In this document: positions 41,591 through 55,803 of the stretch, in pieces
Layout: every line of letters begins with the position of its first letter
Position numbering within the stretch: the stretch's first letter is position 1
Assembly: GCA_032358165.1 (NCBI GenBank)
Contig: JAALGY010000033.1
Coordinates: forward strand, 1,426,001 to 1,490,000
Direction of reading: 5' to 3'
Length of the DNA: 64,000 nucleotides
Source: Diplosphaera chodatii
Taxonomy: Eukaryota; Chlorophyta; Trebouxiophyceae; Prasiolales; Stichococcaceae
Translations under genes and position numbers: made by a program
Notes under the pieces: generated by a model
The model's database searches: none
Told to the model about the DNA's origin: nothing
The model's input: the letters and a program-made list of their open reading frames with translations, nothing else

Positions 41591-44500
41591 CTATCCACAG
41601 ACCACATCCTGCACGTCAGGGAGGGGTGTCAAGTCAGAATATGTTTGGCGGCCAACTGGCAGGGGAGACCCACCAAAGGGGACACAAAAATACATAGGTG
41701 CGACAGGCACATGCCAGGTCATGAGCACCAGCGCTGTCACGCACCTTTGAGAAGTAGCCAAAGCCCTGGAGGCATTGCGGCCAGGTGGGGCTGGTGAGCT
41801 CCTCAAAAGCTGCCAGAGCTGACGTGTAGCCCGCATTGTACTCGATCCCGACACGCGACTCGTTCCGTGTCCGGGTGTCTGCCCACGAGTCGAAGCCTGT
41901 GGTCGAGCCCTGCACCAGCGCGCCGCGCAGCGTGTGCGGGTTGTCCTGCGGAGCAGAGCAGACGGGTCAGTGCGTGGTCGCGTGGGCCCGCAGTAGTGGC
42001 ACCACCTGTGCTGTCCGTTGTCATGCCTCTGTGTCGACATTTCAACAGGCTGGTTTCAATTGGCTGGTGCATGTCAGGAGCGCCGCGCAACACGCGGGAT
42101 ATGAATGAGCCGCAGCACCACACCAACCGGGCGATGCAGCAGCCAGCACGCCTGCTCACCGAGGGGTTGTACAGCCCATTGATGAAGTTGCACTGCGCAG
42201 GCGGGGCGGGGCACGACGCTGCGCGGTCCTGCGCCTGCTTCGGCCCGTGGTTCCCGATGCGCACGATGCCGCTGTGGGTGAAGGTCTGCTGGAAGCCCTG
42301 CAGCAGAAGAGGCAGCAGGACCTCTGTCAAACACCGTTGGATGACCCGCAAGCTGTTGACGACTGGCACACGCCAAGCGGTACCCTGTGAAGCGCACAGC
42401 AGCGTGCATACAGTGCATGGGCAGGCGCTGTGGATAGCTCACCACCACTGCAGCGTTGACGACATCGCCCAGCAGGAAGCGGATTTGGCCCTTGGCCCAG
42501 CAGATGTACCGGTTGGCACGGTCGGGGTTCTTGGCCATGATGGACTTGCCATACACTGCCGCCATCATTGCTGCGTTTGCTGTCACATCCATGCTGCCTG
42601 CACATGCACCATGCAGGTGTTGCATGGGATCACAATACTGCAACACTGGGGATGGAGCACCAGCCCACCAAGAGGAGTCCTGCTCACCCTTGTTGGCATT
42701 CCACGCCCGCCCCTTCTGTGTGTATGTAATGACCTCTGACGAGCAGATCCAGTCGTGCAAGAACTGCTCTGCCTGGTAGTGATACGCCTCCAGATCCGTC
42801 TGCAGCATCGACATCAGCCAATAAGCCTCCTGCTGCTCGTATGGGTCGACTTTGTGGTACAATGAACAGGAATCTAATAAATGACTTGGCAGGGCAGCCT
42901 TGGGACTGTGAGTGCGGCTGATGCTGACAACAACCATGCACACCTGGCTGGCCAGCAGGATGGCGGTGGACCAGAAGTTGTTGTTCCAATCGACAATTAG
43001 GTTGGGTGACAGCAGTGACTCTGGGCTGCTCTGGTAGGCGCCGAAGAACTGCTTGGCGTCATTCAGGTACCCGCCATCACCGGTAGCCCTGATTGCAAGA
43101 AGGGGAAAAACATGTAAAGTAGAGTGCTGTCACGCTGCGTGCAAACAGAAGAGCAGTGCAGCACCCAAGTCCCTTGAAGACGGCACCAATGCTGCCACAG
43201 CTCCATCCTTGCAGCTGCGGTGGTGCTGAAAGCCGAACCTGTACATCCACATGGCGGCCCAGGCCAGGTCGTCGTTGTAGGACGTGGAGTTGTAGGTGTC
43301 TGCCGATGAGCCATTCAGCGGGTAGGTGGGCGGGATGCAGTTGATGCTGCGCCGGATGCGGAGGTTGGGCGCCACGATGCACTCTGGCTTCTTCAGGTTC
43401 TGCAGGTAGTAGTTCTGGTACTGCCCTGCAGCATGCAAATAGCATTAGCATCAGCAAGCTGAAGTTGATGATACAGATGGGTTGCAGCAAGCAACTGCAG
43501 CATGGTTGCACCCCTTGGAGACCATTACTGCCGCACTGACGGTACGATGGTCACACACAGGTGACGGACACAGAGCTCAGTGCATGCGCACCGATGGCCA
43601 TGCCGTACAGCGGCAGCGCCACGTTCATGTACTTGTCGTACAGGCTGGGCTGCTTGGTCTTGAAGACCGCGGCGGTGGAGGCGAGCGCGCCCACTATCTG
43701 CCCATTGAGGTCGGACGCGCCGTTCAGCGCCAGCTTGTTGTAGTAGAAGGAGCGTGGCGTTGTGATGTCCTCCGGCCGGGTCCACGACAGCTGGTCCACC
43801 GTCTCATTGCCCACCTGCACGCGCGCAGCTGTGGACGTCACGCAAGCATTGCACTACAGTGCTGTGGCAGGCAGCAGAGTATGAGCATGAGCAGGACACG
43901 GCAGCGCAGCCTCCACGCAGGGCTGTTTGTGTGGTGCTTCAATGGCTCTACGCACCTGCCACACGACCGCCCAGGTGGACGGTTTGACGCTGCCGCCAGT
44001 GATGATGGTCTTCAGCAGGTACTCGCAGCCCCACACCAGAAACTCGTACCTATCGGGCCATTGCAAAGAGGTTGGCAACCATGGCTGGCATTGCACAGCA
44101 GGCAATGCAACTCCTCTCACTGGACTGACTGACTGACACTGGCACGATGTGTCAGACTAGGCCGATCATGCCAAGGTGCGCATGTAGGCAAAGACCGCAC
44201 TGCGGCGCTCACCCGGCCTGCATCTCGCCTGCCTTCTGGTAGCCCTCCTTGAAGTCCAGCATGCCCCATGCCACCATGCCCGTAGTCCAGGCAATCGGCA
44301 TCGTCATCTTGACAGTGCCCACGCCAGAGTTCTGTGGCACGACGAGAAGGCAGGCCATCAGGCGAGTTGCGCCACACTCGGCAAAATGCAGACCAGCACA
44401 GCAGCCCCGCCAACTGCAGGGCATGTGCACACCTGAGATAGCGCAATCCAAGAGGCAAGGCAGGGCGCCCACCGTCATGTAGCCGCCGCTGAGATCGTAG

Positions 44501-44730
44501 GCCGACGTGGAGGTGGAGATCTTGATGGCCTCCTCCTGCAGCAGCGCATCGGCGCGCCACGACACGCCGTTGTTCGCGGGCAGGCGGCCCACGCGCTGCG
44601 TCTTGAAGAAGTAGTGCGAGTCGCCCAGCGCCTGGCCGTAGTCGTAGGAGCTCGGGAAGAACAGCCAGATGAGGATGAGCGCGCCAAATGCCAGGAGGGT
44701 GGACAGCCAGAACAGCGCCTTGCACACCAT
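41591..44730 (-). other. Module: glycoside hydrolase family 9 (endo-beta-1,4-glucanase fold), catalytic motifs altered
   Basis: Exons 44730-44473, 44331-44213, 44049-43956, 43814-43592, 43425-43239, 43088-42944, then 42850-42688, 42597-42443, 42297-42160, 41945-41745 and 41608-41591 give a GH9 barrel: SGRLP-like VGRLPANNGVSWRADA, DLSGGYM, MTMPIAWTTGMVAWGMLDFKEGY, YLLKTIITG, DDLAWAAMWMYRATGDGGYL, the Asn/Trp-rich DWNNNFWSTAILL, AMMAAVYGKSI, SCPAPPAQCNFINGLYNP and IEYNAGYTSALAAFEEL. Where GH9 enzymes have DAGD after GGYY, this reads GGYM then NSGVG. The HHR motif before ASCP reads QDR. The junction after 42944 is open-frame but lacks a clean in-phase acceptor. KORRIGAN-type membrane GH9 enzymes work with cellulose synthase, so the partnership has precedent. 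Confidence 0.8.
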
Positions 44731-47700
44731 CTGCAGGACAGCGAAGGTTGATGACATCAGTCGCAGATCTGGGAAAAGTTCAACTCACCGCTGGATGCAC
44801 GCCCACACCATATATGGTGGTGACATTAACATCAGCTGCAACAGTCAGCGACCAAGTGTGCTGAGGAGGGTGAGCGCACCCGCAGCGTGCTGCCCTGGCC
44901 CACCCATGTGTACCAAAGCAGCAAGAAGGGCGGGATCATGTTGTACACCACCCACACGAGCGAGATCATCAGCGTGTTCTCGGGGTTCTGGCTGCTGATC
45001 AGCTTCTTCAGGCCGTAGATGAAGGAGATCAGGAGCAAGATGAAGACGACGCATGGCATCCACAAGTCACCCCAGTTTCCTGCTGCCAACCTGCCAGCAC
45101 CCTTCAGCGTGGTCTTAAAGGAGATCTTGGTGCCAAACGCTGACACCAGGCCACGCCACAGCGCCTTGACGTATGTGAACCACATGATCTGGTTGGCGAT
45201 GTTGGAGAACCACAGGGGCCCGATGTGCTTGCGGTTCCGCACATAGTACAGCACGAAGGAGGTGGCCAGGTAGTAGATGGTCAGGCCCACTGCGGCCCAG
45301 AAGTTGAGCACGATGGGGAAGACGCCCGCCCAGATGGTGACGATGGGCACGATGATGAAGGTGGGCGTGCACAGGGAGCCGACGATGTAGGACCACACGC
45401 CCTGGAGGTACATGATGCGCTGCAGCCACGACAGGTCGCCCTGGAAGATGGGGCAGTGCTCCCTGTCGAACAGCACCTGGAAGTGGCCCTGCAGCAGGAA
45501 GCGCACAGTGGGGGATGTCAGCCGCTGCTGTATCCTGCCATAAAGTTCAGCATGACAGCTGAGCACCGACCAAGCTGTAAAGGAGGTGTCAGATAACAAG
45601 TAAAGCGCAGCAAGTGAGACTTGACAGCTGCCTCACCTTGCACCAACGCGACTTCTGCTGGAAGCAGTTTCGGACTTGGTGCGGCGCCTCGCCCACTGCC
45701 AGGAACTCGCGCATGTAGCGGCACTGCCACTTGCGCTTCTTCAGCTCCATGCCGAGCGCAAAGTCCTCTGTCAGGGTCCAGGTGGGGGACCAGCCGCACT
45801 CCTGGAAGGCGTTGGCGCGGATCAGGAAGTTGGTACCTGCAATGTCAAAACTTCTTTTAGTCAGTGCCAAACTATACGGGCGGATTCACATGGGACGCGC
45901 TAGGTATCAGCACATGGAAAGTGCAGCTCCCTTGGGAAAGATCTCATATACAGAGATGCAGATGCCCTCACCCGAGCAGGAGATGAAGGAGAGGGCATCA
46001 TAGCCGATCTGCATGTACCTGCACATGTATACAAACACGATGAGGGAACCTGGCGAACGGAAACAGAGGAGACATCCTGCAGCACAGGGTGCTACAAATG
46101 ACGGCCAGGTCTGCAGAGGTCACGCACTCCCAGAAGTGGATGTTGGAGTGGTTGAAGATGTCGGCGTCGGCGTTGGTGTTGTAGAAGCACTGTGGCGACA
46201 GCACCATGGCCACGTCATCGCCGTCGTCCAGCAGCGGCACCGTCTTCATGAAGAACTCGGGGTTGGCCACCTGCAGTAGAGATGGCGAGAGCAGGGATGA
46301 GGCCCTGAGGGTATGTACCGAGTAAAACTGACGCTGACAACCTGGCTGAGTTGCGCCGACCAGGGTACGCATCTCAGGGCATCGTGCGGAGCCAGGTACT
46401 GCACCTCGCCCTTCATCGTTCCTCAGACACAGAGCAGGGCGACAACGGCAGTTTGGCGCACCTGATCGGCATCCATGATGCAGACGACCTCGTTGCCCGG
46501 GATCCTGCAGCTGTCGGGGTAGATCTGGGACAGCGCATTGTTCAGGTTGCCAGACTTGCCATTGGACTCGTCCGCGGGCCGCTTGCGCCCCGACACATAC
46601 ACCACATCAGGGCCCAGCTTGGTGCACCACTTCCGCTTCGCGCGGTCCTTGCCGTCGTCCAGCAGGTACACCGTGCGGTCGCAGCCTGCAAGGAGCATGC
46701 AAGCATGGCTTCACAAGCGGCACATGTCTGAGTAGATGCAAGGTGGCTACAGCAGCTGACTGCAGAGTGCCAGCAGATCCTCCGGGAGGTGCAGCCACAC
46801 ACCAGCGCCGGATGGAACCAAGCCCAACAGACGAGGCTCATGCGCATCAACTCACCAGCAGGCAGCGCAGCCTCGCGGATGGCATTGAGTGTCTTCTGCA
46901 CGATGTGCAACTCCTCCTTGTAGCAGGGGATCAGCACGCGGATGTGGTAGGCCTGTCAAACATTTGAGGTGCCACGGTCGGTTGATGTCAACATAGTCGA
47001 CATGTAAGGACGCAGAGTTCGAGCTGCTGGTCACTGTTGCAGACATTGCTCCAGGATGGCAGCACAGCACCACGGTATTGCTGTCATCACCTGGTCCAGC
47101 TCGGGACCAATGACCGTGCCCATTGTGATGTCGCTGCGTGCGCTCTGGCTGGGCGTCTGTGACTTGCTGGACAGGGTGCTGGCAAAGGAATCCATTGACC
47201 GCTCCACATCCAACTGCGAGGAACGGTGCACATGGCCATCAAACCGATGTCAGCAGATTCCTGTTCCTGTGATGCATAGCCAGCCGGCCAGCCAATGCCT
47301 GTGCTCGATTTGTGAGGGTTTGAGGGTTTGCCTGCCCTGCAATGTGCAGTCGCATATCTGCTGCAGCTCGGCAGCGCCACGGTGATGCGATTGATCCCAC
47401 CTTGGAGTCGTTGCCAGTGTCTGCATCGCTGACGTCTGACACCTCTGCCTCCTTGGCATCGCCCTTGGCCTTGCGGCGCCACCACCACTTCTTCTGCTTG
47501 CCCGGCTTGGCGGCTGCCTTCTTCTGCTTTTTGTCCGAAACCTCGGGGTGCAGCTTGTACTGCTCAGGCGGCACCGGGTTCAGCAGCAGGTTGATGCCAT
47601 ACAGCGCTGTGGCTGAGGCGCCAAACACCTAAACAGCACAATGTTTTGATTGTGCGGGCCCGGCGTCACAAGTAGACAATTGTGCGAATGTGGTGCTCAA

Positions 47701-50266
47701 GACACCGAGCCATCTGCAGGCAGCTGCTGGGGGAAAGCATTCAATGAAGGGGGACTGGGGGACTGGAGACTTCCCGTGATGGCAAGCATGTACTAAACTT
47801 GTGCTCACCTCAACGACCAGGACGTAGATGCCATAGGCCAGGTACTGGCCAAGGTCCATCGTCTTGGTGATGCGGATGTACATGTAGAAGATGAAGGCGA
47901 GCACCCAGCAGATCATGACAAGGCACCCGGACTTGTTGATCTGCATGGCATGTGAAATGAGCGTTGTGGGACATGTTCTGAGCAGCAGTGCTCGTGGGCT
48001 TGTTGATGTGTAAAGGTGCACGACGCCAAGCCGCATATCACAATGGCATATCCATCCCCTTGCCTTCCTGCGTCAGTCAGCAGGACAGCGGAGGGTTTGG
48101 GGGCCGCACCGTCACGCGGCGCTTGAAGCGCTTGCGCCACCGCTCCTGCTCCTCGCCGTCGCTCTCGTCCTCCGAGAAGATGGACCCGGTCTCCAGGTCC
48201 CGCCCGTTGAAGGCTGTCGCCATGTACTCCATGGGGTTGTCTGGATCCGATGCCAGGCTGGCTGCCTGAGCACAGGCATGCGGGATGTGCCGTCAGCACC
48301 GCCAGCCGGCAACAAGGTGCGGGTCCAGCACCACGACAGCACACCAGGCGGCAGCGGCAGCAGCTGGGTGTGCAGCTGTCATGCCACACACCGCCTGTGC
48401 ACGCTCGCTGCCCACGGCAGGGGGCACATCTGGGAAGGGACGCGCCTTGAGGGAGGCGAGCGACTCATTGTCTGTGCCCAGCCCCATCTCCTTCTCCAGG
48501 CGCGCCGACATGCGGTCGAAGTCGGCCTGCGACCCCGAGTACTTGTGGTGCGCCGCTGTTCTGTACTGCCCCGCAATGAACGCGGAGTCCGCCAGCGACG
48601 AGTCCTCGTCGTCTGTGCCGGAGTACTCCGAGCCATGCTGCAGGAAGGGCAGCCGAGCGTCAGGGTAGTGCAGGCCTCTGGAAGGCTACCACCCAAACTA
48701 CAGCTGTATTCGCAGGCACCCTCCCGCTGCAGGTCTCCTGTGCTGCAACACGAGTGCGAGGCAAGACAGAGGATGGGGAGGGCTGACGGGCCATGCCCAC
48801 TGCACACCTCAGTGCCGTGCTCATGGTCCAGCAGGCCCCGCCGGTCATCCCGCTGCTCGCCGCCCAGCGCCTCCTCCACCCTGCAGTGGCGTTCATTCGT
48901 TGTCAGCTGCACACACATCTGATCCGAACGGTGTTGAAGCGCTTGCCAGGAAGGCAGCATGTTCGCATGCACATGCAGCGGCAGCCAGAGCGCAGCTGAC
49001 AGCACCACACATAGAGCGGTGCCTGCCCCACTCACCGCCGCAGCAGGTACTGCGCGTGCATCTTCCTGAGGGCGCCGATCTTGCTGTCCGACACCTTCAC
49101 CATCTCGATGGCGTCCTGCAGGTCGCGGTCCAGCCGCGAGTCTGCTCTGGACGCCCGCGAGAAGGCCGCCGCTGAGCGCCCCGCCATGGATTCGCCGGCG
49201 AGCGACTCCCCTTCCTGTGCAGATGCAGGAACAGAGATCCATCATGCCCAGTACTGACAGACAGCACTGATCAGGGGTTGCACCGCTGCCTATCTGCGTG
49301 CAGGTCCATGACGCAGGAATGACAGCTGGGGGGGCGCTGCCAACCATGAACCCCACCAAACACACTTCTTCACGGCGAGCCAAGGCCACCGAGCATCGCA
49401 GCCATATGCAATGGTTCATCTATGACCGTGTTGACAAGCGAGCAACGCAGCATGAGGCGGTTGCACCTCCCGGGCGGTTGAACAGAAAGCTCAAACCAGA
49501 AGTCACCCCGTCATCGGCGTGCGCTGACGGCCACAGGCGCGGATCTGGCTGCAGGTGCATGCTGCAAACACAGGGCACGCAGACGGGCGCCGCAAAACGT
49601 TCGGCGCGCCATCTAGCGACCGGACGTTCAAGGACCTCCAAGGCTGCGACTAAGGCGGGCAGCGTCCTTGCTGCCCAGGACACACGACCTCCAGCTGTCG
49701 CATCCGGACATGTTGACCCCCCACGCTTGCTCGTGTTGTCAGAAGAGTCGCTCACCAGCTCGAACTCCGAGTAGTCCTGCCCATAAGCAAGGTCCTCCTC
49801 GCCATGCTCCGCGGCCTGCTGGCCGTCCAGCGCCGGGAGCCTGCACAGCACCAAGGAGCCAGGGTGAGCAGCCTGTGTCGTTCCCGGCGCTGCGTCCGGG
49901 CTGGTCGCTGGCCGCGTCTAGGGCACGGACATGGGGCCACTGCCAATATGGGGTGGCCGGGCAGGTGGCAGCGGAGTCGACGCACTGCTCCTCCGTCCAC
50001 TCATCGTGGCCCAGGCTGCCGCCCTCTGCATGATCCGCGGCATGATCGCCCGGCTCCATGCCGGGGTGCCGCCCGCAGTCGGCCAGAAACCGGCTCTGTT
50101 GCTCCAGCGACAGACACTCGGCCAGCGGTTCAGGCGACGCGCTGCTCACGGTCGTGGAGCCGCGGCCTGCGGCGGTGTCAGCTCAACCCGTGTACACTGC
50201 TGCAGAAGCATCGCCCGGCAGCACGGCCGCCTCGATGCGCGGGTCCTGCGTTGTGGCCATGCGCAT
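41591..50266 (-). CDS. Probable fusion protein: cellulose-synthase-like GT2 followed by a membrane-linked GH9 endoglucanase module
   Basis: Minus-strand exons read first as a processive family-2 glycosyltransferase, then as a GH9 cellulase fold. The last GT2 exon (45488-44880) ends after VGQGSTLR at a GTGCGC donor. A 149-base intron then leads to an exon beginning MVCKALFWLSTLLAFGALILIWLFF (44730), with phase 0 on both sides. That exon supplies the next transmembrane helix and runs straight into GH9 sequence (YDYGQALGDSHYFFKTQRVGRLPANNGVSWRADA). If the two were separate genes, the GT2 frame would stop at 44832 and the GH9 start (ATG at 44757) would be only 74 bases away, far closer than any other gene pair here. 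Topology fits: GT2 active site in the cytosol, GH9 outside or in the Golgi lumen. The proposed start is the ATG at 50266; the first intron is uncertain. The stop is at 41591. Confidence 0.72.
44880..50266 (-). other. Module: cellulose-synthase-like glycosyltransferase 2 with N- and C-terminal membrane helices
   Basis: A long acidic, Ser-rich cytosolic N-terminus (50266-48100, including RLEKEMGLGTDNESLASLK and a basic RWRKRFKRRVTVRPP) precedes membrane helices (CLVMICWVLAFIFYMYI, GQYLAYGIYVLVVEV) and a very basic KQKKWWWRRKAK loop. The catalytic domain begins HIRVLIPCYKEELHIV and carries the processive GT2 set: DDG (about 46660), GRKRPADESNGKSGNLNNAL, DAD (about 46470), TED (about 45765, in WTLTEDFALGMELKKR) and the QxxRW-type QQKSRWCKG (about 45640-45655). 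Five or so C-terminal helices follow. All catalytic residues of a beta-glucan synthase are present. The product, cellulose or another beta-glucan, cannot be told from sequence. Plant CesA zinc finger and class-specific regions are absent, so this is CSL-type. Confidence 0.88.

Positions 50267-50649: not shown

Positions 50650-55803
<5,154 letters not shown>

Follow-up and report, generated by a model that had tools for sequence, protein, structure and literature searches.

Whether KORRIGAN-type GH9 enzymes cut or handle chains in cellulose synthesis is a long-standing question. KORRIGAN (GH9A) itself is a separate type II GH9 protein with a single transmembrane (TM) helix and an intact catalytic triad, while in the bacterial system BcsZ is a GH8 enzyme and BcsA has a PilZ domain. 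According to published work, KORRIGAN is a membrane-tethered GH9 that works with CesA and hydrolyses amorphous cellulose in vitro (PMC9099982), tunicate CesA is a GT2-GH6 fusion with seven TM helices and the GH6 domain after TM7 (PMC6523144, PMC10986139), and Blanc et al. (2012) described four GH9-cellulose synthase-like fusions in Coccomyxa subellipsoidea C-169 (PMC3446292). Here we analyse a gene of Diplosphaera chodatii on the reverse strand of a 64,000-nucleotide stretch (hereafter the window; contig JAALGY010000033.1, positions 1,426,001 to 1,490,000), in which a GT2 synthase is joined through TM7 to a full-length GH9 module that has lost its catalytic residues.

The window protein shares with tunicate CesA a GT2 domain, a predicted set of seven TM helices and a glycoside hydrolase placed after TM7, but the tunicate hydrolase is of another family, GH6. 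As with plant KORRIGAN, a membrane-tethered GH9 accompanies a cellulose synthase; KORRIGAN, however, is a separate protein, whereas the window GH9 is covalently fused to a multi-TM GT2 and its triad is lost, which places it outside the definition of KORRIGAN. Bacterial BcsA is the closest solved-structure sequence to the GT2 half, Pfam reports no PilZ domain in the window protein, and in place of the separate GH8 of the BcsA/BcsZ system there is a fused GH9. The gene belongs with the green-algal GT2-GH9 fusion synthases of Blanc et al. (2012): the domain pair is the same, Coccomyxa relatives of the window protein stand at 48-49% identity and Coccomyxa rows are included in the joint tree presented below. 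An earlier note on this DNA knew of no description of a GT2-GH9 polypeptide, a statement overturned by the four Coccomyxa fusions; compared with the accessible part of that article (PMC3446292), the subjects added here are the catalytic residues, the topology, the relatives with an intact triad and the loss of the acid. No mention of an inactive triad or of ulvophyte forms was found in the portions of the literature searched, most subscription journals and supplements being outside its scope.

A single gene for the GT2 synthase and the GH9 module

A hand-made model of 25 exons, joined in frame at the junction between the GT2 and GH9 parts, gives one open frame of 1406 residues. In this protein Pfam places PF13641 at residues 411-644 and PF13632 at 507-709 (GT2 in total 411-709), and PF00759 at residues 878-1378 over its full length (444/444 profile positions), the order being an acidic N-terminus, TM1-2, GT2, TM3-7 and GH9. 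Spliced alignment, performed with our own script and P0001 as the template, maps residues 1 to 1417 of this relative onto the window across the junction, with 25 introns and a start at 50059 instead of the gene end at 50266 given in the earlier note. P0001 is the best match among 42 in the first protein search, partial rows included (1417 residues, 80% identity), and its contig of 4668 bases is only 1.10 times its coding length, which leaves almost no room for introns; since the window gene requires 25 of them, P0001 is probably derived from RNA. Both domains are also found in P0034, P0043 and P0119, fused rows named as assembled transcripts with a complete open reading frame.

The junction itself proved to be as previously described. 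Re-reading of the sequence finds the donor GTGCGC at 44879-44874 and the acceptor CTGCAG ending at 44731, the spliced alignment agrees on phase 0 with the hand-made model in frame there, and the exon that follows holds the next TM helix (TM7) and runs on into GH9 according to the model, Pfam and hydropathy. Reading through the donor leads to a TGA at 44834-44832, and 74 bases separate it from an in-frame ATG at 44757-44755, as had been noted too. These two signals would allow for a pair of neighbouring genes, with GT2 ending at 44832 and GH9 beginning from the ATG at 44757, and two GT2-only proteins of Coccomyxa, P0035 and P0036, could be cited in the same sense. However, the partner copy of the gene elsewhere in this genome (C26) has neither an intron nor a stop at the junction, all nine other fusion loci run through the junction point inside an exon, P0001 is continuous on its near-intronless contig, P0034, P0043 and P0119 hold both domains, and the GT2-only Coccomyxa rows nest within the fused clade and look like later losses. 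Given the end-to-end intron-free relative and the C26 junction, two genes are effectively excluded, and this model, to which we leave virtually no probability, was dropped on the strength of the P0001 alignment and the intron-free junctions at the other fusion loci. Hence the analysis confirms that a BcsA/CesA-type GT2 synthase, TM7 and the full-length GH9 are encoded together in one gene, in agreement with the single polypeptide proposed earlier.

As judged from its sequence, the GT2 half carries the motifs of an active synthase. DDGKD, MDADQ, LTEDF and QQKSRW are those of processive GT2 cellulose synthases of the BcsA/CesA type, and FKTTLK aligns with the bacterial gating loop FxVTxK, as expected of a TM channel with such a loop. 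In 67 algal rows, not counting gaps, the motifs DDG, DxD, (T/G/C)ED and QxxRW occur with single deviations, for instance one DDKKD, and the 53 rows that are filled and belong to the commonest forms tallied show an FxxTxK loop. The predicted fold matches BcsA and CesA8. Among solved structures, bacterial BcsA chains come closest in sequence (best E 3.3e-23; of the 7 distinct sequences that matched, CslF6 ranks last), and the nearest non-algal relatives among the best 7994 candidates by shared words are bacterial proteins at ~24-31% identity, several of them from genera that we take to be actinobacteria. As part of the overall explanation favoured below, the gene product is on balance probably a protein of the bacterial BcsA lineage that has seven TM helices and acts as a processive beta-glucan (cellulose-type) synthase; its family points to cellulose or beta-1,4-glucan as the likely product.

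Loss of the catalytic residues in the GH9 half

The GH9 half matches PF00759 over its length, as expected of a GH9 fold, and in the alignment to the termite GH9 1ks8 it has none of the three residues expected of an active GH9 cellulase (D54>T, D57>G, E412>R). The idea of one protein that both makes and trims glucan, put forward in the earlier note, is thus not borne out for the window gene, whose GH9 is without the catalytic acid and both catalytic aspartates. In all, 74 fused rows were aligned, 10 of them belonging to this genome and some being partial. Of these, 57 are without the acid, 13 have all three residues, two of these being Bryopsis, and 4 are unreadable, so that E412 is lost in 57/70 readable rows; some rows are intermediates in which only the acid is lacking. 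Loss of the acid in every fused protein was ruled out by the fused rows with an intact triad found in wider protein searches. P0041 was classed as lacking D54 by pattern and has D by eye. The acid is replaced by R in 35/58 rows (one R coming from P0039, unreadable at its C-terminus), W in 7, I in 4, G in 4, Q in 3, A in 2 and N, M and S in 1 each, and such variation does not suggest a new catalytic residue.

In order to assess how specific the losses are, the 126 columns invariant in 1ks8, 3wc3, P0048 and P0050, the last two being included as references since their triad is intact, were scored over 55 other fused rows with gaps set aside. P0042, which has no GH9, is left out of the GH9 alignments, and P0051-P0054 (GH9 stubs) and four unfused rows of this genome are left out of the column test. 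By column, A55, D57, W301, H359, Y408 and E412 are kept in 0/55 rows, the D57 figure being alignment-dependent as the copies C21 and C32 hold DFGD one column off (lost by column, kept by pattern), and H124 (kept in 2%), R305 (4%) and D54 (13%) are mostly lost. W301, H124, H359 and R305 are presumably sugar-contacting residues in GH9. Ten columns are kept in all 55 rows, W74, W221, D213, R405 and C372 among them, C365 is kept in 98%, and the groove aromatics are mostly kept (W127 94%, Y206 94%, W253 83%). The GH9 half should accordingly not hydrolyse glucan: it has lost the acid, both aspartates and several cleavage-site residues, although by prediction the fold and some of the groove are preserved. 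In relatives such as Bryopsis, where the whole triad is kept, trimming by the fused GH9 is plausible.

The GT2 and GH9 trees, built separately, agree on the main groups; several of their forks are open and they contain long branches. The joint tree covers 59 rows; it was built quickly, without bootstraps, and rooted on the intact rows. In it, one branch with an SH-aLRT of 100 splits 50 rows from 9. The 50-row side, which holds the window, has no readable acid in any row (2 are without a readable column), while 8 rows of the other side have it and P0116 does not; this requires a minimum of 2 changes of the acid, one of them at the base of the 50-row clade. The trees leave out own_C13a and own_C21, with one stop each, and the joint tree also leaves out fused rows whose GT2 or GH9 part is short, including P0050, P0106, P0109, P0114 and P0117, all of which have an intact triad. 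The direction from intact to dead is taken from GH9 enzymes outside fusions, which mostly keep the triad: it is present in 7/8 non-algal GH9-only sequences (1ks8, 3wc3, P0124, P0126, P0133, P0145 and P0158) and not in P0121. The latter, from Ciona savignyi, is a tunicate GH9 without a GT2 match, and its degenerate triad shows DGAG and a Ser at the place of the acid.

The named rows of the dead side are Coccomyxa, Elliptochloris, Trebouxia, Symbiochloris, Apatococcus, Micractinium, Chlorella, Myrmecia and Botryococcus, whose acid column is unreadable. A taxonomy look-up confirmed six of these nine genera as Trebouxiophyceae, to which we assume the remaining three also belong, and the named rows of the intact side as Bryopsis, Ulvophyceae. 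P0035 and P0036 of Coccomyxa are GT2-only and lie inside the fused clade, and P0036 stops right past TM7, leaving a short GH9-like stub; they look like secondary losses of GH9.

Paired copies in the genome and selection on the GH9 module

Genome-wide GH9 and GT2 family searches, both lists of which are lower bounds, provided 17 loci that were fetched and spliced-aligned. Together with the window, these make up at least 10 fusion loci in 5 pairs (window/C26, C25/C19, C3/C10, C13/C44 and C21/C32), at least 4 loci that have GH9 but no GT2 match (2 pairs) and at least 4 that hold other GT2 genes. The 38 GH9 matches listed all sit in the 14 GH9 loci, among which no intact triad was seen, and the GH9 domain is present at 10/10 fusion loci modelled. 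The C13a and C21 fusion models contain one stop each, in stretches poorly aligned by the distant template, and their partner loci are stop-free. The unfused GH9 genes at C13 820-822 kb, C44 1265-1268 kb, C7 36 kb and C18 52 kb have an altered aspartate motif, EAGG. Among the other GT2 loci, by eye, C52 and C35 look paired while C2 and C10 (34 kb) differ more.

Each of the 7 GH9 gene families (5 fused, 2 unfused) exists as two copies on different contigs with ~74-82% DNA identity, and the five fused pairs show 95-99% protein identity in their GT2 and GH9 parts (badly aligned stretches dropped). Considering these DNA and protein identities side by side, two haplotypes were dropped as an explanation of the paired loci; the values suggest that the assembly either mixes two related algae or contains two subgenomes that have diverged. 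C26 has a single uninterrupted exon in place of the last GT2 and first GH9 exons, running from TM6 through TM7. The intron at the window's junction position is absent at 9/9 other fusion loci modelled; in the eight besides the window and C26, four have a phase-2 intron 4-7 residues past the junction and four a phase-1 intron inside TM7. A conserved junction intron was thus ruled out, this intron being found in 1/10 fusion loci, and since only the window copy has it, it looks like a recent gain. About 40 codons past the junction, a 2-base difference between C26 and the window breaks the frame in the first GH9 exon part of C26 (L019), being either a real defect or an assembly error. This shift limits C26 as a control, but the junction lies upstream of it and is intact.

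The ratio of nonsynonymous to synonymous substitution rates (dN/dS) was calculated between the two genomic copies by the Nei-Gojobori method with our own script, badly aligned stretches being dropped. For the window gene it is 0.055 in GT2 and 0.057 in GH9, and for the other four pairs it varies from 0.021 to 0.089 in GT2 and GH9, a 46-codon stretch of the C3/C10 N-terminus giving 0.156. The GH9 values of all five pairs lie at 0.04-0.09. Given that dN/dS is as low as in the synthase half, the dead GH9 domain is under strong constraint.

Predicted topology and proposed role of the GH9 module

Hydropathy of the joined window protein gives two helices before GT2 and TM3, TM5, TM6 and TM7 after it, TM4 being below the threshold, and so places TM7 between GT2 and GH9 as had been expected. 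An AlphaFold model was obtained for the Elliptochloris relative P0006 (1159 residues, 41-row alignment, pLDDT 85.6, pTM 0.80), in which the GH9 fold is predicted to be intact. Its helices are found at 88-112 and 116-141 and, after GT2, at 425-458, 467-484, an interface pair at 490-523, 544-570, 576-606 and 619-649, followed by GH9. On our reading of the model there are seven TM helices and, with five of these following the cytosolic GT2, GH9 would lie outside the membrane. In the mechanism that we propose, the synthase would extrude a beta-glucan chain through its translocation channel, TM7 would carry GH9 to the extracytoplasmic side, and the tethered GH9, unable to cut, would hold or align the nascent chain at the channel exit, acting like KORRIGAN with the cutting step dropped.

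On balance, we consider it probable that the gene encodes a synthase with a built-in, non-cutting pseudo-cellulase that sits outside the membrane and handles the emerging glucan. Several points weigh against this. The structure model is of a relative at ~50% identity (P0006) and not of the window protein, the C26 copy has its 2-base frame shift in GH9, and the groove, having lost W301, H124 and H359 together with the catalytic residues, may have little or no affinity for glucan. Moreover, a purely structural role such as oligomerisation would yield the same selection signal. A dead GH9 serving as a structural or oligomerisation part without contact to glucan is the main rival, which we regard as unlikely though serious: cleavage-site residues have been replaced whereas many positions of the core are invariant, and its dN/dS is about as low as that of GT2, but the groove aromatics W127, Y206 and W253 are conserved, which is weak evidence against it.

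A working cellulase that trims the chain, with other residues in place of the lost triad, appears improbable. The 13 fused relatives that keep D54, D57 and E412, two Bryopsis included, indicate that an active form of the architecture probably exists, and Blanc et al. call the domain a glycosyl hydrolase and predict cellulose (PMC3446292); yet the window protein has lost the acid and both aspartates, W301, H359 and Y408 are kept in 0/55 rows, and the residue at the place of the acid varies among relatives. It is more improbable still that GH9 is a decaying relic heading for loss, as the general catalytic loss in the clade, the GT2-only relatives in Coccomyxa and the shifted GH9 of C26 might suggest, for its dN/dS is low in all five pairs, the fold core and the cysteines C365 (98%) and C372 (100%) are kept, and none of the 10 fusion loci of this genome lacks the domain.

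The non-cutting synthase partner can be extended, more tentatively and with somewhat less than even confidence, to the history of the green-algal clade: the acid would have been lost once at its base while fused relatives in ulvophytes stayed intact, the dead module would have become a fixed and selected glucan chaperone at the synthase exit, and cutting would be dispensable for the role of the GH9 partner there. The dead-cellulase synthase offers a natural test of whether the cellulose machinery needs the cutting of its GH9 partner or only the holding of the chain. Indeed, these algae offer natural fused proteins on both sides, with an intact triad (Bryopsis and kin) and with a dead one (the clade of the window), as well as intermediates that have lost only the acid; and since the covalent attachment fixes the stoichiometry and location of GH9, deletion or exchange of the domain would be directly informative.

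Table 1. Features of the GT2-GH9 gene in window coordinates.
Feature	Positions	Strand	Basis
Whole gene, 26 exons/25 introns, ~1400 residues	41591..50059	-	Spliced alignment to P0001 residues 1-1417; open frame of hand-made model; Pfam
TM1 and TM2 exons	47401..47940	-	
GT2 catalytic exons	45489..46952	-	Pfam; alignment with bacterial BcsA structures
GT2 motif DDG	46651..46659	-	Position hand-counted
GT2 motif DAD	46465..46473	-	Position hand-counted
GT2 motif TED	45763..45771	-	Position hand-counted
GT2 motif QQKSRW (QxxRW)	45643..45660	-	Position hand-counted
Last GT2 exon, TM3-TM6 region and gating-loop-like FKTTLK	44880..45488	-	TM4 from the model of a relative, not from hydropathy
Junction intron, phase 0, 149 bases	44731..44879	-	Hand-made model and spliced alignment
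First post-junction exon, TM7 and GH9 start	44473..44730	-	
TM7 and GH9 exons	41591..44730	-	PF00759 positions 1-444 of 444, 238.7 bits
Codon at the place of catalytic Asp54 (1ks8), here Thr	44473..44475	-	Hand-counted
Codon at the place of catalytic Asp57 (1ks8), here Gly	44317..44319	-	Hand-counted; exact column affected by a two-residue insertion
Codon at the place of catalytic acid Glu412 (1ks8), here Arg	41853..41855	-	Hand-counted

A neighbouring gene lies head-to-head with the fusion gene at 50700-52160 on the + strand, and reads like what we take to be DNA gyrase subunit A.
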